A program made the translations under genes and the position numbers. From an uncultured archaeon (GTDB lineage: Archaea; Thermoproteota; EX4484-205; JAAOZP01): DNA of 64,000 nt. The stretch is from NCBI GenBank assembly GCA_938045545.1, contig CALIBN010000007.1, positions 80,073-144,072 of the forward strand. The letters run 5' to 3'. Every line of letters begins with the position of its first letter. Positions within the stretch are counted from its first letter, which is position 1. This document shows positions 22,964 to 36,981 of this stretch, piece after piece. The notes below the pieces were generated by a model. That model searched no databases. It saw only the letters and a program-made list of their open reading frames with translations, and was not told the DNA's origin.

Positions 22964-23388
22964 ATGAGTCCGGATGAAGACCTTTTTGAGACTCTGTCGC
23001 ATCCCCTGCGGATTGAAATACTTAAGCTACTGGCCAAAGGTTCTATGCGTTTCGCTGAGATAAAAAGGAGCTCAGGATTAATAGTAGCGGCCTCCTAGAT
23101 TTTCATTTAAAGAAGCTTGACAATCTGATAGGCGTAGATGGTGAAGGCCATTACGTCTTGAATGAGAAGGGGGTTGCAGCATTACAAGCGGTTGAAATTA
23201 TATCTAAATATGGTTGGCAGAAAAGGGTGTTCTTCATAAACCTTTTAATATATATTCTAATGAATTCATATGTCTTTTTAACAGACATAAAGTTAGCTTC
23301 AATAGTACTGGCTACAAGTACATTATGGATAGTATTCTACAGTTATTGGACATTCTTCAAAAGGCGTGTACATCTTAAAAACATATAA
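22964..23388 (+). pseudogene. ArsR-like winged-helix regulator, frameshifted
   Basis: The first frame (ATG at 22964, with GGTGAT ten bases upstream) gives 'LFETLSHPLRIEILKLLAKG'. This is the ArsR-type winged helix common in archaeal regulators. It stops near 23097. Shifting by one base at the A-run near 23061-23065 restores the typical continuation 'NSSGLLDFHLKKLDNLIG ... YVLNEKGVAAL'. Two TM helices then follow to 23388, as in archaeal membrane-anchored ArsR-like regulators. One extra A would give a single uninterrupted protein of about 141 residues. The change is in a homopolymer, so it may be a sequencing error. The gene precedes an ABC exporter and probably regulates it. Confidence 0.7.
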
Positions 23389-23444: not shown

Positions 23445-24219
23445 ATGACGTATTCACCCCCAGTTTTCGTTAAAGAGCTCGTGGTTAAATATGGTTCTTT
23501 CGTTGCTGTCGACGGTATTTCATTCACCGTTGAACCCGGGGAAATATACGGACTTCTCGGTCCCAACGGGGCTGGTAAAACCAGCACTTTGAAAAGTGTT
23601 AACCGGGCTTTTAAAGCCTGCTTCCGGGAGAGTTGAAATATTCGGCAGGCCTCTTTCAGACGAGGTTGCTGTGAAAAGCATGATGGGCTATGTTCCGGAG
23701 GAGGTCATTCTGATGGATTCACTAACCCCAAGGGAATTCCTAGAATTCGTCGCCTCCATTAGGCGTCTAAACGCAGACACGGTTAACACGCGGCTTGAGA
23801 AACTGGTTTCAGCGTTTCAACTCAGAGAGTATTTCGACACACCTATCGCAGCCCTTTCCAAGGGGAATAAGCAGAAGGTCGCGGTAGTAGCGGCTCTGAT
23901 GCACGAGCCAAAGCTCCTAATTCTAGACGAGCCCCTGATAGGGCTTGACGCGTTCTCATCTAAAATACTCAAGGAACTGTTGACTTTCCACGCGAGCAAG
24001 GGTGGTGCAGTGATTTTTTCAACACACATCATGGAGGTTGCTGAAAGACTCTGCACGAGAGTGGGTATAATAAACAGGGGGAGGATGGTTGGTGAGGGCA
24101 CAGTCGATGGTCTTCGAAAACTGGTTAAGAGCGCGGAAGGCTCCTTAGAGGAAATATTCTTGAAGGTGACTGAGCAGGAGGCTGGAGTCCAGGAGATAGT
24201 TAAAGCATTGGAGGCGTAG
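23445..24219 (+). pseudogene. ABC transporter ATPase, frameshifted after Walker A
   Basis: The first frame holds Walker A (GPNGAGKTS) and runs out after 'TLKSVNRAF'. The second frame resumes exactly where expected with '[17 protein letters not shown]' (from 23596) and carries 'LSKGNKQK' (signature), 'LLILDE' (Walker B) and 'STH' (H-loop). Removing one A from the AAAA run at 23592-23595 joins them into a full ATPase of about 257 residues. The signature motif is the unusual LSKGN form. The C-terminal frame ends six bases before the permease start. It is disrupted as given; a homopolymer error is a serious alternative. Confidence 0.75.
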
Positions 24220-25921: not shown

Positions 25922-28018
25922 ATGGTGAAAGGCATGAGTGAGGAAAAAGAATTCCTCCTCGGCAAATTTTTGAAGTCTCGAGGATTCATAGTTGGCCTAG
26001 TAATCTCCATAGTGATGATGCTAATACAGCTTTCAATAGACTGGACCAACGTTAATCTGACGCTGTGGGGTATGAATGCTGGCGCATTTCTAGTCCTATT
26101 TGTGCTGGCAATACTTGGCTACTTTCTCAGTTCCCTGAGGCTCAGGGCAGACGAATACGCTATCGTTTTCGCCATGGTGACGGTGAGCCTTGGCTTCGCC
26201 TGGTCTGTAGCCGTACCATTTTCAATATCGATTTTCAACACAGCTTGGGAAAAACAATGGTGGTACATGGGATACTGGGTGTCCACAATACCGGGAGCCC
26301 TGGAGATGAGCCCCCTTTTCGGAGTAAAGGACGCAGAGGCGGCTTTAGCTGCTTTCACCGGGGGAACCTCTGTTCCTTGGGCGGCTTGGGCGCCTGCGTT
26401 AGGCTACTGGATCGTCTTCACGATAGTCTTGGTAGTATTCATGATTTCAATGGGGATGATACTTCGGAAACTATGGATAGACATTGAGAAACTTCCGTTC
26501 CCATATTTGAACATTACTAATGAGCTTATCAATTTGGGTCTTGGCGTAACCGAGAAGCCCCGCGTGAAAAAGATACTGATAGGCATACTCATAGGCTTTC
26601 TACTAATGCTCGGGAACCTAATAGATGCCTTGGCACCCGGGAGAGGATGGAACCTGTGGCAGACCTACCACATTGAAGCCTTGGAGGTCGCATTGCCCAA
26701 TTCAAGCTGGTTCTTCAGCGTTTCACCATCTCAGCTAAGCTTATGGTATCTCGCACCGCTGGATGTTCTCTTCACCGCCGTAATCGCCTGGTTTATATTC
26801 GCAGACATTATTCCAGCCATATCAGCTTGGGCAGGATACGCGGCGCTGCAGGCACCTTGGGGAAGCTCCGGGGGAGCATGGCACAACATGGCTTCAGGCG
26901 CTATCGCACCTGTTTCCGGCGGTATGATCGGATGGGGCGCGATGATCGGCTTAGGCCTCTGGCTTCTCGTCTACGCAAGGAAATACATTGTTTCCACGCT
27001 TAAAAACGCGTTTGGCAAGAAGGTGCTGGACGAGTCTAACGAGCCGTTCTCGTACAGAACTCTCTGGCTGGCCTTCATAGTTTCAATCGTGCTGCTCATA
27101 GTGCTCATGGTCGCCGTCTACATTCCAGTCTGGGCAGCAGGTATAATCGTAGTATATACTTGTCTCCAGTATGTTGCGACATCCAGGATCCGTGGTGAAA
27201 GCATAGCGAAGGGTGACATTCCCTGGGAATCACAGGAGGTTTTGGCCACGCTATTGTCTCAAGCAGGCCTCTACTCGCTCGTCGGACCCCAAGCATCGGC
27301 AGCGTCTCAAGCTGCATACGGGCCAGGTGCCTACACGGCTTGGAACATGGGTTACGTGGTGACTGGGCACTACACGTGGTACTGGGGCGGCGCGGGCACG
27401 CCTCAGAGCGCTCAGCTTGAAGCCTTCAAATTGGCGACTTTAACCAAAACACATAACAGGGCTATGGCTATTTCAACCATTGTGGCCATGGTCCTCGCTG
27501 TCCTCATATGTCTCCCGCTGTGGCTGGTCTTCACGTACATGATTGGGATTGACAAGGGCTTCGGGCATGGCGGCACCCTCTACAGCCAGTGGGTCAGCCC
27601 AGCATGGTGGAGTCAAGAAGCCATTTTTAACGCTGCTTTTAACCAAGCTCAAGGCTGTTCCTGGTTTAACTGGAACAAGGACCTGCTGGGACTTGAGCTG
27701 GCGAACTGGGCTGCAGGCTTCTTCCTCGCCGGAGTTCTTCTCTGGGCTAGGGTTGCATTCGCCCGGTTTCCATTGAATCCGGTGGGTCTCATCATAGGCT
27801 TGTGCCAGCCTGCACACTGGCTTTGGGGCTACCTTCTTGTCGCATGGGTTTTGAAGTTTATAACGTTTAGAATAGGCGGCTCAAAGCTCTATGAAGAAAA
27901 AGGCGTGCCGCTGGCGATAGGGATATTCCTAGGCTCATTCATAGTATCCATAATTACCGACATATTCCTGCCGGTTGCACAAGCAGGAATAGAATGGGCT
28001 CCTGCTGTTCCAGGTTGA
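25922..28018 (+). CDS. OPT-like (DUF6785-type) polytopic membrane transporter
   Basis: A 698-residue membrane protein with about 14 hydrophobic segments. 'VPWAAWAPALGYW' followed by 'RKLWIDIEKLPFP' near residues 144-192 is typical of the OPT-related DUF6785/DUF6784 family. OPT proteins import oligopeptides or metal chelates; the role of DUF6785 members is unproven. The ATG at 25922 is 27 bases from the centre of a TATA box (ACTTAAATAG, 25891-25900), so the transcript should be leaderless. Met5 has no better support. It precedes the M28/FtsX fusion, and a second OPT-like gene follows that fusion, which suggests a joint uptake function (inference). Confidence 0.7.
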   Translation: MVKGMSEEKEFLLGKFLKSRGFIVGLVISIVMMLIQLSIDWTNVNLTLWGMNAGAFLVLFVLAILGYFLSSLRLRADEYAIVFAMVTVSLGFAWSVAVPFSISIFNTAWEKQWWYMGYWVSTIPGALEMSPLFGVKDAEAALAAFTGGTSVPWAAWAPALGYWIVFTIVLVVFMISMGMILRKLWIDIEKLPFPYLNITNELINLGLGVTEKPRVKKILIGILIGFLLMLGNLIDALAPGRGWNLWQTYHIEALEVALPNSSWFFSVSPSQLSLWYLAPLDVLFTAVIAWFIFADIIPAISAWAGYAALQAPWGSSGGAWHNMASGAIAPVSGGMIGWGAMIGLGLWLLVYARKYIVSTLKNAFGKKVLDESNEPFSYRTLWLAFIVSIVLLIVLMVAVYIPVWAAGIIVVYTCLQYVATSRIRGESIAKGDIPWESQEVLATLLSQAGLYSLVGPQASAASQAAYGPGAYTAWNMGYVVTGHYTWYWGGAGTPQSAQLEAFKLATLTKTHNRAMAISTIVAMVLAVLICLPLWLVFTYMIGIDKGFGHGGTLYSQWVSPAWWSQEAIFNAAFNQAQGCSWFNWNKDLLGLELANWAAGFFLAGVLLWARVAFARFPLNPVGLIIGLCQPAHWLWGYLLVAWVLKFITFRIGGSKLYEEKGVPLAIGIFLGSFIVSIITDIFLPVAQAGIEWAPAVPG

Positions 28019-28077: not shown

Positions 28078-31000
28078 ATGCCTCTGCAGAGAAAAATCCT
28101 GCTTCGAAGAATATTGAGAGTAAAGCTTAATCAGCTGCCGATTATCTTCTTCTTATGCTCAACGATCGTTTTTAACGCTGTTTATAAAGTGGAGGCAGAC
28201 GGCCTGCAGGCCTTTAAAAATGGCGATATTTTAAACACCATTAACGTAGACGCTATTCGCGGGCACGTAAAGTATCTATCCGGCCTAGGATGCAGGACTC
28301 CCGGTCACCCGGGCTATGAAGCCGCTGCGAAGTACATCTATGAAAACTTCGTGAAAACTGGTCTTAAACCGGGTCCTTACGGTTACTTTGAAAACTTCAC
28401 GGTTCTAGTCCCCGTGGTTCACGAGGCAAGGGTTCAAGTATTATCCCCGTTCCAGTTTACTCTTGACAATGTTTTAACAATGTACCCGATGGGTCTAAAC
28501 CCGGGTGTGACTCCCCCGGAGGGTATTGAGGGGAGGCTGGTCTACGTTGGGAAAGCATCCCTGTCGGAGCTTGATGGAAAAAACCTTAATGACACGATAG
28601 TGCTTGTGGACTATGAAAACAGCGGGAATTGGATTCGCACGGTGATGTTTGGTGCTAAAGCAGTGCTGTTCGTTGAACCCGAAGCCTATAATAACGTTCA
28701 AAGTTCTTTAAACGCTAGGCTTCCGGATGCACCTCGATTAGCTTTCAGGGGAGGAGTCAACTACCTAGGCATCCCGCTAAATATTCCTAGGCTTGTGGTT
28801 TCAAGAAGGGATGCGGAGAATCTGATCGATCTTCAGGCAAGCGGTGAGGTTAAAGTAAGAATTAGGCTGAATGCTTCCTGGGAGGAAAAGCCAGCTTGGA
28901 ATATTTTAGGCGTAATACCTGGAAGGAGAGAAGAGGTTGTGATTTTAAGCGCATACTATGATTCACAATCATACGTAGTTGGGATGGCTCCTGGAGCAGA
29001 TGAGGCCATAGGCATTGCGACGATCATGGAGCTGGCTTCCTGCTTTAAGGATAATCCCCCGGAGAGAACCGTATGGTTTCTTGCTATAGGCTCTCACTAC
29101 GGAGGGTTAAAGGGCTCTAGAGATTTTGTGGAACGGCACTTCGAGGAAACGGGCAAGAAGATCAGCATGTGGATAAACTTCGATCTGGCTTCCGACGTGA
29201 GCGATCTAGGAGTGTTCTTCTGCGGGTACAACTATTATTTCGAAGCCTCCCTCTTAAGGTATACTTGGCTCCGTGATAGATTATTCGGGTCGCGGTCCGA
29301 GGTGAAGAATATCCTGCAGAACCTGGGCCTCGACATAAATGTTGAAGACGGTTTACGCGTGAGGGAATGGAGAACATACTTGCCAACTAACCTTGCTTTC
29401 GACCATGAACCGTATGTTGTGGCGGGAGGAGTCGGCATAACAGTAGCTACCGCAAATTCTTTCAGAACCTTCCGCTCCACGCCTTCTGACACCTATGAGA
29501 ATAGTCTCGGCTCTCAGAGAAGGTTTGAAAACACTAGGAAACAGGTTAGGTTTATTGCAGCCTTAGCATCAAGCCTGATAAACGGTCCTGACTTCGGAAG
29601 CAAGGGCATTGGGCCAACGAGGTACGCTTTACAGCCAAATGCAGGCGGGTTCGTTACTTTAACTGGGAAAGTTGTTACATATGATTATGCGAAGGGATGG
29701 TTTAAGGAGGTGCCTCACGCACTGGTTTCAGTCCGCCTGTCTTATATGGAAGGAGGGTATTCTCCACATTTCTACTCTTTATGTAAAACGGATGAGAACG
29801 GCGTTTTTGTGGTTCACGGACTGCCTTCAGAGACAACCTATACGGGTGCGCAACAGCTGGGCGTGGGAGTTGCTGAGGTCGCGGTTCCAAAAGTTATTGT
29901 TGAGGCATTCGTCTTCAACGATAATGGAAGCATTATGTATGCCCCAGAGCTGTGGCAGCAAAGATCCGACGTATACCCTATTTCTTTCCAGGTTGACAGT
30001 GGGCGTATCGGGACCCCGGATGCACCCCGCTATTTTCCAGTCTTCCCATGCGGCTCAATAGTCTTATTCAACCTTGTTCCGCCGGTAAACCTGCTCGGGA
30101 GCATCTCTATTCTAGATTCGCGTGGTCACACTCCACCTACTTCCTACGGCTATGTTCGCGACAGCTTCATTGAGGGCGAAGACATAACTATGATATTTGT
30201 CCCCGAAGACGTGCCTATTGAGGTTATAGCCTACAGCCCGGGAATACCTTTTCCCCAGGGAGTTTTGAAAAGTATTACTGAAGAGAATCGCGAGGGGCGA
30301 GGCTTCTCGGTTAAACAGGGTGAGACGTTAATCATCCTAGCCACTCCTTTAAGGCTTGTTAAGGATTTTCATCTTTTGAACAAGTATAGGCTTGACTTGG
30401 CGTCAAGCTACTTGGCTGCGAGCGCTCCCGCCTTAGAGTTCTCCAAAAATACGGGTAGTCTGTTAAACGAGGCTTCAAGATGTTTCTCGGCTGAAGCCAG
30501 GTTTAATTATTCTCGCCTCGTTTACGCTACTTATGCTGCTTGGCAGAGCGAGATAAACGCTTACATGTTTACTAGGGGCCTAATTTTTGAAATAATTTCG
30601 TCAACCCTGTTCTTTTTCATACTTTTAGTTCCGTTTTCAATACTCTTTGTCGAACTCGTGTTCTCGCCGAGAAGCGGCCTGCAGAGAATATCATATGCGT
30701 GCGGGGCCTTCGCGCTTTTTACATTTCTGCTCTACTGGTTTCACCCTGGTTTCCACTTGGCGACAAACATCTATATAATGCTGGTTGGCATAGCGATCCT
30801 GGTTTTCGTCACCCCCGTCATAGGAATACTGTGGGGCAGAATATCAGGCTTTATCAAAGCGTTTAGAGAAGAGATAATCGGCAAACATTTCGCCGAGATA
30901 AGCCGGTTCGGTGCAGTTCTCATAGCTTTCTCAATGGGCATATCTAACATGAGGAAGAGAAGGCTGCGGACTACTCTTACGCTTGTAACAATCACGTTGA

Positions 31001-32640
31001 TAGTGTTCTCCCTTATTTCGCTAACATCCATATACTTGATATCAATAGTCAGAACCATTCCGAAACCCGGGAAAACCTACTATGACGGAATACTAATAAG
31101 TGAATTCAGGTACCTGCCATCATATCTGGAGGGCCTTCTCAAAACGGAGATAGGAGACGAAGCAGTGATATGTCCAAGAAGCTGGATCTATACTTCCAGC
31201 GGCTACGTGTCAGTCTTGGGAGGGCAGGTTCCGGGGGCGAAGATAAAGGTTACTAAGATCACGGGTAACCTGTCTGAAACGCAATACGTCTTCTCCGCTT
31301 TGCTTGCAGTCGTGCCGGAGGACCCTATCTTCGAGCAGGGCATTACTCTTCCTGGTTCCTATGGGCTACTCGGTTCTTACACGACCATAATACCGAGGGA
31401 GGCTGCAGATGCCTGCGGCTGGAGAATAGGCGATATAATTTATGTTGGCGAAGCCAATCTGACTATCGTCGGAATATTCGACTCTTCCATTCTCAACAGC
31501 CTAGTGGATTTAAACCTGCACAAGGTGACGCCCATCAACTGGGGTGTCCAATGGGCAGGCGGCATTCAGCATATTCCCGCCCAATCCGTGCTTATAGTTC
31601 CGTACTCGCTTGCAGAAAGGTTAGGCTATCCTCCGATGCAGATAGTCGCTAAATTCCGTAATCAAAGCAGGGTTTTCGAATTTGCCCAAAGCCTGTCTAA
31701 CAGGCTGCCGTTTGTCGTTTACGCTAGCGCCGGGGGCCAGAGGGCCAATTTCCAGCAGCAAGCATGGTTCTCGCTCAGAGGAATAGAGCACCTTGTTTTC
31801 CCGATTGTCATTGCAGCTCTGGCAATCTTGGATGCGATGCTGGCCAACGTGTATGAACGTGTTAGAGAGATCGGTATTTTTAGCTCACTGGGGCTCTCGC
31901 CCCTGCATGTTGCCGGTCTCTTTCTGTCGGAAGCGTTAGTATATTCTGTTGTTGCTGCAGTCCTAGGGTATGTTGTAGGACTTGTGGGAACTAATATCCT
32001 CTATATGTTTCAATTAATGCCGAAGGACTTTTACCCTAACTTCTCCTCAACGATCGTAATTTTAACAGTTTCAATATCGATATTAACAACGATAGCGTCC
32101 TCCGTCTATCCTGTTATGAAGGCTTCAAGGCTGGTCACGCCCTCGGTGGAAAGGGTTTGGAGGCTTAAAACCAAGCCTCAGGGCGACGTCTGGGACATAC
32201 CGTTACCCTTCACCTCCTCGCCTGAGGAAACCGACGGAATCATAATGTTTTTAGTCGAGTTTTTCAAGGCTTTCACAACGGCTGAGGTGGGCGCCTTTAG
32301 AACGGACAATCTCACATTGTCTGAAAAGGTTGAAGAAGGGGCTGTTGAGAAGATCATAATCGTTGACACCACTCTGCCTCCTTTCGACATGGGGATCTCG
32401 CAGAGGGCTGAAATACTGATTCGTAAAGATGCTGGCGAAACCAATTTCAAATACGCTCTTCGTCTAAATAGAAAATCCGGTACGCTTTACATGTGGCAGA
32501 AAGCAGGATACAGGTTTGTAGACAGTCTCCGCAAACAACTACTCATTTGGAGGACCCTTCCCGCGGCAGACAAGCTGGAAGTGATTAAGAAAGCCTGCGA
32601 AATACGAGAGACATTTAAGGAGGCGAGGAACCATGAGTAG
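28078..32640 (+). CDS. Giant fusion: M28-like (metal ligands lost) ectodomain plus FtsX-type permease
   Basis: A 1520-residue membrane protein. A signal-anchor TM lies at about residues 18-35. Residues about 55-510 follow the M28 aminopeptidase fold, including the PA-like insert. The metal site is gutted, however: 'SAHYDS' has become 'SAYYDS' (Y293), only the Asp in 'PGADEA' (D308) remains, and the catalytic 'EE' is 'SH' (339-340). A carboxypeptidase-regulatory-like beta domain follows (about 520-605). The C-terminal half has TM segments near 838-860 and 875-925, an MacB-like 'NMRKRRLRTTLTLV' segment (about 960) and an FtsX block with 'RVREIGIFSSLGLS' (about 1260). A polar tail of about 150 residues ends it. 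The ectodomain probably binds peptides or glycopeptides rather than cutting them (inference). The gene overlaps the next OPT-like gene by eight bases. Confidence 0.75.
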   Translation: MPLQRKILLRRILRVKLNQLPIIFFLCSTIVFNAVYKVEADGLQAFKNGDILNTINVDAIRGHVKYLSGLGCRTPGHPGYEAAAKYIYENFVKTGLKPGPYGYFENFTVLVPVVHEARVQVLSPFQFTLDNVLTMYPMGLNPGVTPPEGIEGRLVYVGKASLSELDGKNLNDTIVLVDYENSGNWIRTVMFGAKAVLFVEPEAYNNVQSSLNARLPDAPRLAFRGGVNYLGIPLNIPRLVVSRRDAENLIDLQASGEVKVRIRLNASWEEKPAWNILGVIPGRREEVVILSAYYDSQSYVVGMAPGADEAIGIATIMELASCFKDNPPERTVWFLAIGSHYGGLKGSRDFVERHFEETGKKISMWINFDLASDVSDLGVFFCGYNYYFEASLLRYTWLRDRLFGSRSEVKNILQNLGLDINVEDGLRVREWRTYLPTNLAFDHEPYVVAGGVGITVATANSFRTFRSTPSDTYENSLGSQRRFENTRKQVRFIAALASSLINGPDFGSKGIGPTRYALQPNAGGFVTLTGKVVTYDYAKGWFKEVPHALVSVRLSYMEGGYSPHFYSLCKTDENGVFVVHGLPSETTYTGAQQLGVGVAEVAVPKVIVEAFVFNDNGSIMYAPELWQQRSDVYPISFQVDSGRIGTPDAPRYFPVFPCGSIVLFNLVPPVNLLGSISILDSRGHTPPTSYGYVRDSFIEGEDITMIFVPEDVPIEVIAYSPGIPFPQGVLKSITEENREGRGFSVKQGETLIILATPLRLVKDFHLLNKYRLDLASSYLAASAPALEFSKNTGSLLNEASRCFSAEARFNYSRLVYATYAAWQSEINAYMFTRGLIFEIISSTLFFFILLVPFSILFVELVFSPRSGLQRISYACGAFALFTFLLYWFHPGFHLATNIYIMLVGIAILVFVTPVIGILWGRISGFIKAFREEIIGKHFAEISRFGAVLIAFSMGISNMRKRRLRTTLTLVTITLIVFSLISLTSIYLISIVRTIPKPGKTYYDGILISEFRYLPSYLEGLLKTEIGDEAVICPRSWIYTSSGYVSVLGGQVPGAKIKVTKITGNLSETQYVFSALLAVVPEDPIFEQGITLPGSYGLLGSYTTIIPREAADACGWRIGDIIYVGEANLTIVGIFDSSILNSLVDLNLHKVTPINWGVQWAGGIQHIPAQSVLIVPYSLAERLGYPPMQIVAKFRNQSRVFEFAQSLSNRLPFVVYASAGGQRANFQQQAWFSLRGIEHLVFPIVIAALAILDAMLANVYERVREIGIFSSLGLSPLHVAGLFLSEALVYSVVAAVLGYVVGLVGTNILYMFQLMPKDFYPNFSSTIVILTVSISILTTIASSVYPVMKASRLVTPSVERVWRLKTKPQGDVWDIPLPFTSSPEETDGIIMFLVEFFKAFTTAEVGAFRTDNLTLSEKVEEGAVEKIIIVDTTLPPFDMGISQRAEILIRKDAGETNFKYALRLNRKSGTLYMWQKAGYRFVDSLRKQLLIWRTLPAADKLEVIKKACEIRETFKEARNHE

Positions 32641-34510
32641 CGTTAAAGGCGTCTCAGGGTTAACCTGGAGGTCCTTCCTAGTGATACTCTATGGCATAGT
32701 GGTTCTTTTGCCGGCGGCAATATGGTACCAACTTTACAGCGGCGGTAACCTTAGCTCTGGGATCCAGTATACGCTACTATTGTTTGCCGTTGAACTCGGG
32801 TTTCTGGCTGGACACCCGTTAAGCAGGCAAGAGGCATTCCTAATATGGATGATGGGGCATCAAATCTGCTTTGAGGTTGTAAGCATCCAGTGGATATATG
32901 CAACCTGGTTTAGAACCAGCCCCTATGCCTATGGGTTGAACATACCGGATTGGTGGGCTCCTGCTCCAGAGACAAACCTGTTTATCTACAGAACATTTTT
33001 CTCACCCAGCTTCATCACACCTATTTTCATATCTCTAGTAGGAGGGCTACTTTGGAAACTTGCAGACATGTCTATGGCGTTCATTGCGAAAAGCATGTTC
33101 ATCGAGGTCGAAGATTTGCCGTTTCCAACCGCTCAGGTCGGGGCTGATGCAATTCTGACGCTTTCGGAGAGGACGGATCCTAGGAGAACCCGGATTTTTA
33201 CACTGTCGGCGGCACTGGGCTTTGTCTACGGTCTTCTAGTCTATTTGCCGGCACTAGTGCTGGGTTATACGACGATTCCAATCCCATGGATAGACCTGAC
33301 TAGCAGAATAGAGCCGTTTCTACCTGGAGCCTCGTTCGGCGTAGCGACTGATATCATAAGCATCGTGACAGGGTTCATACTTCCGGTGAGAGTAGTCCTA
33401 ACCCTGTTTGCAAGCGGAATGGCTTTCTACTTCTTCGGATGTTTCCTCACCAGTTCCGAATCACCGTTGCCAGCCCTTAGGGGGCTGTTCAGCTATTGGT
33501 CTCCAGGCTCCTCTCTTTCAACAATATACCAGCATTCGCTTTTCGAGCTCTGGGTAAGCCCAATAATAGGCTTAGCCATAGCTGCGGGGGTCCTCCCAAT
33601 ATTAAGGAACCCTCAAATTTTCATTAACTCTCTGAAAAGTCTCTTGAGAATAAGGGTCGGCAAGGGTGTTGACAATTACCCATTATGGTTCCTTCTAGCA
33701 CTGTTCTTCGGCTCAACCGTTGGGTCGGTTGCTCTTTTCACCTACCTGATACCTGGTCTCCCAGTAACTTTTATACTGCTGCTTCTTGCTCTTTCCTCAG
33801 GATGGTCATTCATATACACTTTAGTGGGCACAAGATCCTATGGTATAGTTGGTTTTAAGCAGGATGTTCCATATCTTAAGGAGGGAGTATTCCTCGCATA
33901 CATGGGTGCAACAGGCTTTAACGATACCAGAATATGGTTCGGCCCACTTATTATCACTACTTTCGGGGCTGATTTTTGCTACTTCATGAAGATCGGTCAA
34001 CTTTGCAACACGCCTTCAAAGACCATGTATAAGACATACTTCCTGGTTTTCCCAATCGTCTGGCTGGTTGGCTTCATCTACGTGTCTGCCTTCTGGAACA
34101 TCGCGCCAATGCCATCCAACGTTTACCCTGGTACGAATATTTACTGGCCTATTCAGGCTCGATGGCTCCGCCTGTTCGCTTCAGGGGGTGCGGCTGGCCT
34201 GCTCAACCCGCTTCTCGTAGCCGGCTTCTTCACGATTGGCCTAATTGTTTTCGCCGTCTCCGAGGCGACGCGCCTAGGCATTCCTGTCATAGCTTTGTCT
34301 GCAGGCACGGCGCAACCATTACCTTACTCTGTCTCCCTACTGATAGGGATGATTATTGGAAAACTGGTTGAAAAAAGAATAGGACGAGACTTCTGGTCGC
34401 GCTACAGGAATGCGATAGTCGCCGGGATTTCCCTGGGGGTTGGCTTAATTATAACGATTAGCGTGGCTATAGGGCTGATTTTGAAAAACATGTGGATACT
34501 TCCATACTAG
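32633..34510 (+). CDS. OPT-like polytopic membrane transporter (second copy)
   Basis: A 625-residue membrane protein with about 14 hydrophobic segments. 'ADMSMAFIAKSMFIEVEDLPFP' (split here as residues of one conserved loop near 145-165) parallels 'RKLWIDIEKLPFP' of the copy at 25922 and marks the OPT-like/DUF6785-related fold. 'SERTDPRRTR' then precedes the next TM block. The start overlaps the end of the M28/FtsX fusion by eight bases, so the two are translationally coupled. The substrate is unknown; peptide or small glycoside uptake would suit the context. A T-run follows the stop. Confidence 0.65.
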   Translation: MSSVKGVSGLTWRSFLVILYGIVVLLPAAIWYQLYSGGNLSSGIQYTLLLFAVELGFLAGHPLSRQEAFLIWMMGHQICFEVVSIQWIYATWFRTSPYAYGLNIPDWWAPAPETNLFIYRTFFSPSFITPIFISLVGGLLWKLADMSMAFIAKSMFIEVEDLPFPTAQVGADAILTLSERTDPRRTRIFTLSAALGFVYGLLVYLPALVLGYTTIPIPWIDLTSRIEPFLPGASFGVATDIISIVTGFILPVRVVLTLFASGMAFYFFGCFLTSSESPLPALRGLFSYWSPGSSLSTIYQHSLFELWVSPIIGLAIAAGVLPILRNPQIFINSLKSLLRIRVGKGVDNYPLWFLLALFFGSTVGSVALFTYLIPGLPVTFILLLLALSSGWSFIYTLVGTRSYGIVGFKQDVPYLKEGVFLAYMGATGFNDTRIWFGPLIITTFGADFCYFMKIGQLCNTPSKTMYKTYFLVFPIVWLVGFIYVSAFWNIAPMPSNVYPGTNIYWPIQARWLRLFASGGAAGLLNPLLVAGFFTIGLIVFAVSEATRLGIPVIALSAGTAQPLPYSVSLLIGMIIGKLVEKRIGRDFWSRYRNAIVAGISLGVGLIITISVAIGLILKNMWILPY

Positions 34511-35786: not shown

Positions 35787-36981
35787 ATGAACCTCCAAAG
35801 TGGAAATATTGCGGGAAAAACTCGCATTAAACCATTACTCGTCATATTCGCCTACAACATACTGTTCATGGCTGCATCCGGGCTTTTAGTACCGGGTACT
35901 CCACTATATCTTTCTACGAACGGTTTTGACGGGGGCTCCGTCAACCTGCTACTGTCCTCCATAGCAGTATCAAGCCTCATAGGGCAGGTGGCATGGGGAT
36001 ACTTGTCTGACAAGGCTATGGACAGGTTGTTTTTCCTGAAGCTTGGAACCGCGGGCTACGCGCTCGGATACTTGGCTATAGTTTTGCTAAAGAATAGGCT
36101 TGCCCTCGCAATTCTACTCGTTGCAACGAGCTTTGTAGGTTCAGCGTCATACCCGGCTGCAATGGCGCTCCTGTCAGAAACCTCTTCTACCAAGAACCGT
36201 GGCAGGTCGATGGGCGTTTTTTTGGTCAGCCGCCTCCCTGGGTTGGGCCATTTCAGTCGCGTTCACAGGATTCGTAATAAACGAGTTGGGTGGAGGATAC
36301 TTTTTCGGCCTCTGTTCACTCCTCTATTCTGCTTCACTCGCCCTCGTCCACCTGTTTTTAAGGATTGAAGACAGGCATGCTTCAGACGATAAGAGGAGTA
36401 GAGGGGTTTCTTTGAGCTCCCTCTTCAGACTGGGAACACCTTTTCTAGCGTTTCTCTCCGGAAGCATTATCTTCTTCATGGCTGATTTCGCGAAAAATGT
36501 GTACGTGCTGATGTTCTACGCTTTTGAGCTGGGGCTTGGCATGGTAACAGCCACGCTGCTTCTGAGCCTCACCAGCTGGCTTGAGATACCGGTCAACGTG
36601 ATCTTCGGATACCTCTCGGATATGCTTGGTCGAAAAACCGTAGTGCTGGTTGCATACGTGCTGTGCAGCGCCTACATGTTCATCAATTCCATGGTCAGCG
36701 GTTTTGAGGGGGCTCTGCTTACCATGGCTTTCTACGGCTTTGTCTGGGGTGCTTTTTCAGGAGCGAGTTCAGCATTTGCCTCTGAACTTGTCAATGAAGA
36801 TAAAAAGGGTGTTGCTCTAGGCCTTTTCAACTCTTCTTGGAACATAGCGAGTATGCTCGCCCTAGTGTCGATCGGAATGCTTAGCCAAGCCTACGGGTAT
36901 CGGTTAATGTTCAACACCATGGGCGTCTTAATGCTCCTAGCGTGCCTCATCATCATCTTCGGGATACGGGGCAGAGCTTAA
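35787..36981 (+). pseudogene. MFS transporter, frameshifted
   Basis: Frame 1 gives the N-terminal half of a major facilitator protein: 'LLVPGTPLYLSTNGFDGG', 'LIGQVAWGYLSDKAMDR' (loop 2-3 motif A) and 'SSTKNRGRSMGVF'. Frame 2 continues with 'WSAASLGWAISVAFTGF' and then six or more helices to 36981, including a second motif-A-like 'FGYLSDMLGRKTV'. The switch is in a seven-T run (36217-36223). With six T the protein reads through as about 398 residues. As given it is broken, but a homopolymer error is likely enough that a working sugar or oligosaccharide importer should not be ruled out. Confidence 0.75.

Follow-up and report, generated by a model that had tools for sequence, protein, structure and literature searches.

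What might a membrane protein do that carries the shape of an aminopeptidase ahead of an FtsX-type permease core, with no cognate ATPase fused to it or encoded beside it? Such a protein, P0001, is encoded in a 64,000-nucleotide stretch of archaeal DNA, referred to here as the window, from a host genome (G000) of 2.03 Mb that is 92% complete. An ortholog of equal length and ~91% identity occurs in Candidatus Brockarchaeota DRTY-6.bins.80, and this near ortholog was the sole match when genome contigs were scanned for P0001. A first-pass annotation of the window had proposed that a dead hydrolase domain, set on a mechanotransmission permease, acts as a substrate sensor or capture module. The features that bear on this proposal are the following, all on the plus strand.

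25922–28018, plus strand: OPT-superfamily carrier A (DUF6785/DUF6784), 698 aa (Pfam PF20581, E 5e-37; PF20580, E 2e-14)
28078–32640, plus strand: P0001, M28-like pseudopeptidase (strongly supported by alignment) with FtsX-type permease, 1520 aa; family alignment of 43 members
28222–29577, plus strand: M28-like ectodomain with inserted apical domain, residues ~49–500 (model, Foldseek); ligand alignment indicates loss of the metallopeptidase site
29635–30342, plus strand: beta-rich ectodomain region, residues ~520–755 (strands in model)
30577–30852, plus strand: three extra transmembrane helices N-terminal of the FtsX core, residues ~834–925 (hydropathy, model helices)
30964–32157, plus strand: FtsX/MacB-type core with ERxREI cytosolic loop, residues ~963–1360 (Pfam, Foldseek matches to MacB/LolCDE, profile)
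32167–32637, plus strand: conserved C-terminal tail, residues 1364–1520 (seven invariant residues in 29 members; Foldseek matches weak)
32633–34510, plus strand: OPT-superfamily carrier B (OPT-like), 625 aa (Pfam OPT, E 6e-6)

The domain architecture of P0001 is supported by several lines of evidence. Pfam places M28 at residues 275–475 (E 7e-15) and FtsX at residues 1241–1351 (E 2e-13). An AlphaFold2 model of residues 40–838 (pLDDT 84.5, pTM 0.87) resembles M28 aminopeptidases, glutamate carboxypeptidase II (GCPII) and the transferrin receptor in Foldseek (E 1e-19 to 1e-24), which confirms the M28 aminopeptidase fold that had been read from the sequence. The fusion of a MacB/FtsX-type permease behind this domain was also borne out: the model of the C-terminal part (pLDDT 82, pTM 0.61) matches MacB and LolCDE in Foldseek, and the family profile matches MacB by sequence (E 7e-21). 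The four helices and the extracytoplasmic loop domain of an FtsX core are present according to Pfam, profile, model and Foldseek, and the ERxREI cytosolic loop is conserved across the M28-FtsX family. Between the two parts the first-pass annotation had placed a carboxypeptidase-regulatory-like domain, at about residues 515–750. This identity was dropped, as none of 29 members gave a Pfam match there or across residues 520–755 and a PDB profile search returned nothing significant; the region is predicted to consist of beta strands. The unassigned C-terminal tail of ~150 residues proved real and conserved, with the seven residues invariant among 29 members, and is predicted to lie on the cytosolic side. 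No match to it was found in the PDB by sequence. Its model weakly resembles helix-grip (START/Bet v1) folds (Foldseek E 0.03–0.09), and this resemblance together with its topology faintly suggests that the tail may be a START/Bet v1-like domain.

Whether the M28 domain could still act as an enzyme was addressed by mapping metal-site positions onto P0001 through alignments. The reference was the Vibrio aminopeptidase, whose site residues are H97, D99, D117, E151, E152, D179 and H256. The correspondences are H97 to Y293, D117 to D308, E151 to H340, E152 to Y341, D179 to D369 and H256 to S467, so that P0001 holds Y, D, Y, D and S at the five ligand positions (H, D, E, D and H) and His at the general base. 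The replacement of a ligand His by Tyr293 had been recognized earlier. The EE pair, previously thought to have become Ser-His, aligns without gaps to H340-Y341. D308 is retained as had been noted, but it is not the only survivor: with D369 also kept in the alignment, two ligand positions are left in P0001 rather than one. Across the family, E151, E152 and H256 are kept in 0 of 43 aligned members, and the trio H97, D117 and D179 is intact together in only six of the 43. D295, at the D99 position, is invariant (43/43), while position 340 is His and position 444 is Glu in 35 of 43 members each. None of the 43 aligned members keeps H, D and EE, and a wider alignment, in which three stand-alone M28 proteins retain the EE pair, gave an equal loss in the family. 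The alignments thus strongly support the view that the M28 domain of P0001 is a pseudopeptidase and that the loss is family-wide. Taken as a whole, the earlier account held for fold, fusion and loss of the site, including the strongly supported dead hydrolase, and failed for the identity of the EE replacement, the claim that only D308 is kept and the carboxypeptidase-regulatory domain. As a separate observation, two stand-alone M28-type proteins are encoded near a triad in locus L049 (11718–13742 and 3535–5607); the first retains the EE pair, and an active peptidase may therefore work beside the dead receptor at that locus.

The M28-FtsX family occurs in Brockarchaeota-like and some other Thermoproteota genomes and was found in 35 of 250 Thermoproteota genomes sampled. 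Three full-length members are encoded in G000, with more in several Brockarchaeota-like and related genomes. Related FtsX proteins of ~1000–1070 and 1660–1800 aa share the C-terminal half of the family and carry other ectodomains; at the loci L097 4398–7493, L013 8493–11708, L011 10214–15199, L093 8595–13970 and L094 5868–11246, no adjacent ATPase was seen.

The most consistent feature of the full-length members is the company they keep. An OPT-like gene lies within three genes of 56 of the 60 members and a DUF6785 gene equally close to 53; both are present in 52 and at least one in 57, counts that are biased for DUF6785 in the loci from L120 onward, which were retrieved through DUF6785 matches. 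The earlier loci, retrieved through the M28-FtsX protein, give the same triad pattern, and the members without partners are on short contigs or near contig ends. The two carriers are homologous to each other (hhalign probability 100, E 3e-42), and Pfam OPT is matched in 17 of 36 members of the OPT-like carrier family, with E-values as low as 1e-15. No solved structure related to the OPT-like or the DUF6785 partner was found by sequence. In the window the triad lies on a single strand, with a 59-bp gap between carrier A and P0001 and an 8-bp overlap between P0001 and carrier B, spacing of the kind expected within an operon. The pseudopeptidase status of the receptor and the existence of the triad are near certain. 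Neither a description of the triad nor a mention of DUF6785/6784 was found in the literature searched. At L127, L128 and L136, DUF6785 genes have neither a receptor nor an OPT-like gene in their vicinity, so this carrier may work in another setting as well. Elsewhere in the window, an MFS transporter gene at 35787–36981 is split into two overlapping frames; it is absent from the orthologous locus L043.

A permease of the MacB type would be expected to have an ATPase partner, and the first-pass annotation had pointed to a search for one. None is adjacent: an A/B-type (MacB-type) ATPase gene lies within three genes of the receptor in 0 of 60 full-length members, and an ABC ATPase of any kind in five of 60. 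An ATPase gene in the window, at ~23446–24219, was considered as the partner of P0001 and rejected, being of ABC-2 type and belonging with a 12TM permease downstream of it. In the present assembly a frameshift interrupts this gene near 23600; the copy in L043, a near relative, is intact and encodes 262 aa. Before the gene in the window lies a small winged-helix-like ORF (22965–23386) that is seemingly broken near 23090. The two may reflect assembly error or decaying genes.

Candidate partners are encoded elsewhere in the genome, in the form of MacB-type ATPases and a minimal FtsX protein. Four MacB-type ATPases are found in G000; three adjoin FtsX genes, and the fourth is an orphan, designated ATPase A, that is 97–100% identical across G000, G003, G004, G005 and G006 (one genus), 86–87% identical in two more genomes of the genus and ~66–79% identical in most other triad families. 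The gene for a further ATPase, B, is paired with that of a short FtsX protein of ~200 aa, which lacks an ectodomain and consists of roughly four helices. In G000, ATPase A is encoded at C18:13157–13879, the short FtsX at C11:21808–22440 and ATPase B at C11:22474–23169. Both A and B retain every ATPase motif intact. The distribution of these genes was tallied by hand across the 250 Thermoproteota genomes, with a threshold of E <= 1e-79 for A/B-type ATPases. The ATPase was present in 33 of 35 genomes with M28-FtsX and in 13 of 215 others (Fisher P ~3e-28, inflated by relatedness), the short FtsX in 31 of 35 and 10 of 215, respectively, and the ATPase in all 41 genomes with a short FtsX (P 7e-42, likewise inflated by relatedness). 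In families f6, f28 and f30, genera with the receptor have the ATPase and genera without the receptor lack it. Co-location provides support independent of co-distribution: in f6/g33, where only one triad occurs, the short FtsX and two ATPases are encoded within ~5 kb of its last gene, and in six genomes of f30/g51 an ATPase lies ~7 kb from DUF6785, with the short FtsX ~8 kb away on the opposite side and the M28-FtsX gene on a different contig from DUF6785 and the ATPase. In a different context, ATPase A adjoins a gene for a ~590-aa two-domain ABC protein, probably ABCE1/Rli1, in several genomes, at L200 5135–7880, L217 7311–10053, L207 and L208.

These arrangements suggest a mechanism in which P0001 would act as receptor-permease within a membrane machine built from modules. 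The outer M28-shaped domain would cut no peptides; its former catalytic cleft, or some other part of its surface, would capture a ligand. A change in conformation would be transmitted through the membrane by the FtsX core to the pair of OPT-type carriers encoded alongside, which would carry out or assist uptake. ATPase A, ATPase B and the short FtsX would form a shared module that powers the triads in trans, much as one module serves many substrate-binding components in group II ECF transporters. We infer that the parts assemble physically, that coupling to the carriers is driven by ATP, that transport runs inward and that a ligand is bound; the best reading of P0001 remains a mechanotransmission permease bearing a module that would sense or capture a substrate. 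A shared energizing module that serves the triads is likely, given the matching distribution and occasional co-location. Against it, ATPase B may belong to the short FtsX alone, or the module may serve the ~1000-aa FtsX cousins and not the M28 type. The ATPase/short-FtsX module occurs without M28-FtsX in G007, G025, G032, G247 and other genomes, and several of these encode a ~1000-aa FtsX that shares the C-terminal half, which suggests a possible role for the module in a broader family. The complete proposal, which joins receptor-permease, OPT carriers and a module shared in trans, comes close to an even chance while falling a little short of it; we know of no precedent for an FtsX core coupled to OPT carriers or for an ABC system working with OPT transporters.

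Other readings of the same evidence are possible. P0001 could be an ATPase-free receptor and scaffold that binds ligand outside and gates two OPT carriers driven by the proton gradient, its FtsX core being a leftover anchor. OPT proteins are secondary carriers, and carrier genes adjoin nearly all members whereas genes for FtsX-type ATPases never do; nevertheless, members of the family retain ERxREI, the loop that contacts the ATPase in MacB/LolCDE, and across genomes the receptor is tracked by both the orphan ATPase and the short FtsX, which leaves this reading unlikely, although it deserves serious consideration. Transport could instead run outward, with lipids, lipoproteins or glycans released or exported in a LolCDE/MacB-like manner and the M28 domain as a cargo chaperone. 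The FtsX relatives of known structure that come closest act in export or extraction and the tail is weakly similar to lipid-binding START-like folds, but OPT family carriers import where their direction is known, and the copy number per genome and the varied neighbours suggest nutrient specialization over a single housekeeping export; this reading is improbable. Somewhat more improbable still is FtsEX-like signalling, in which ligand sensing would activate enzymes or regulators with no transport involved: a large ectodomain is suited to sensing and FtsX proteins can act without transporting any substrate, as in FtsEX, yet two linked carrier genes indicate transport. That the M28 domain is still catalytic, through a metal site that is reduced or of another kind, to which the trio kept in a few members, the invariant D295 and the frequent H340 and E444 might lend themselves, is very improbable given that the general base E151 and the ligands E152 and H256 are gone from every aligned member and that P0001 also lacks H97.

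If the receptor-permease captures a nutrient, peptides or oligosaccharides would be the candidate substrates. Peptides are the natural guess because a dead aminopeptidase is combined with oligopeptide-type carriers. The neighbours of the triads include glycoside hydrolases (GH3, 10, 38, 42, 57, 106 and 130), a CBM protein, a fucose isomerase and TrmB. Among large neighbours, the share of GH/CBM proteins was 8/24 against 3/20 in control regions taken from those genomes (Fisher P 0.29). GH42 was in proximity in 8/29 cases, or ~4/20 after orthologous loci were collapsed by eye (P ~0.05 against a rough background of 7%), and a hand count of Gfo/Idh among the neighbours revealed no enrichment. A role in oligosaccharide or sugar uptake is accordingly offered as a suggestion from the glycoside hydrolase neighbours, for which the controls gave no significance.

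The family also bears on how archaeal genomes are interpreted. Brockarchaeota are described as having a broad repertoire of peptidases, some of them potentially extracellular and with substrates that could not be identified, and on these grounds as taking part in protein remineralization (PMC8065059). M28-FtsX proteins should be left out of such peptidase counts. The dead-peptidase receptor family and its carriers hint at an unrecognized modular nutrient-uptake machine. The wider claim, of a new modular import system in Thermoproteota with interchangeable receptors, their own OPT pairs and ABC-type energy coupled to OPT carriers by a single FtsX half-transporter and two ATPases that all triads share in trans, is tentative and rather doubtful. 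If the shared module is real, it would provide a testable energy source for ATPase-less archaeal FtsX permeases, and perhaps for acidobacterial orphan permeases, and would link the ABC and OPT classes of transporter.

Among known systems, the closest in kind to P0001 are the acidobacterial duplicated orphan permeases (ADOP, TIGR03434), which are likewise FtsX/MacB-type permeases without adjacent ATPase genes and form large paralogous sets. As many as 102 acidobacterial orphan permeases occur in one genome (PMC10564751). P0001 differs in scoring 38 bits against the TIGR03434 cut-off of 622, with the match confined to the FtsX core, and in having a single FtsX core, an M28-like ectodomain and OPT partners. 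The MacB/LolCDE/FtsX superfamily shares the FtsX core and the ERxREI loop, by both profile and structural matches, while P0001 lacks an adjoining ATPase and adds a very large M28-like ectodomain, three extra helices and a long cytosolic tail. The transferrin receptor, nicastrin and nicalin have an M28-like fold without peptidase activity, as P0001 probably does. The family profile matches the transferrin receptor and nicalin, the former being matched by structure as well, and nicastrin offers a parallel as a non-enzymatic M28-like ectodomain; these proteins are eukaryotic and have no fused FtsX core. The flanking carriers match the OPT family or DUF6785/6784, as well as each other, and to our knowledge OPT carriers have not been described with any FtsX receptor. 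In group II ECF transporters, a module made up of EcfT and two ATPases is shared among many substrate-binding components (PMC10662466). The gene numbers and distribution reported here, with one short FtsX and ATPases A and B for many triads, match that pattern in distribution and would correspond to similar sharing, although the module is of FtsX type and not EcfT type, the carriers are OPT-like and no homology to S-components is claimed.
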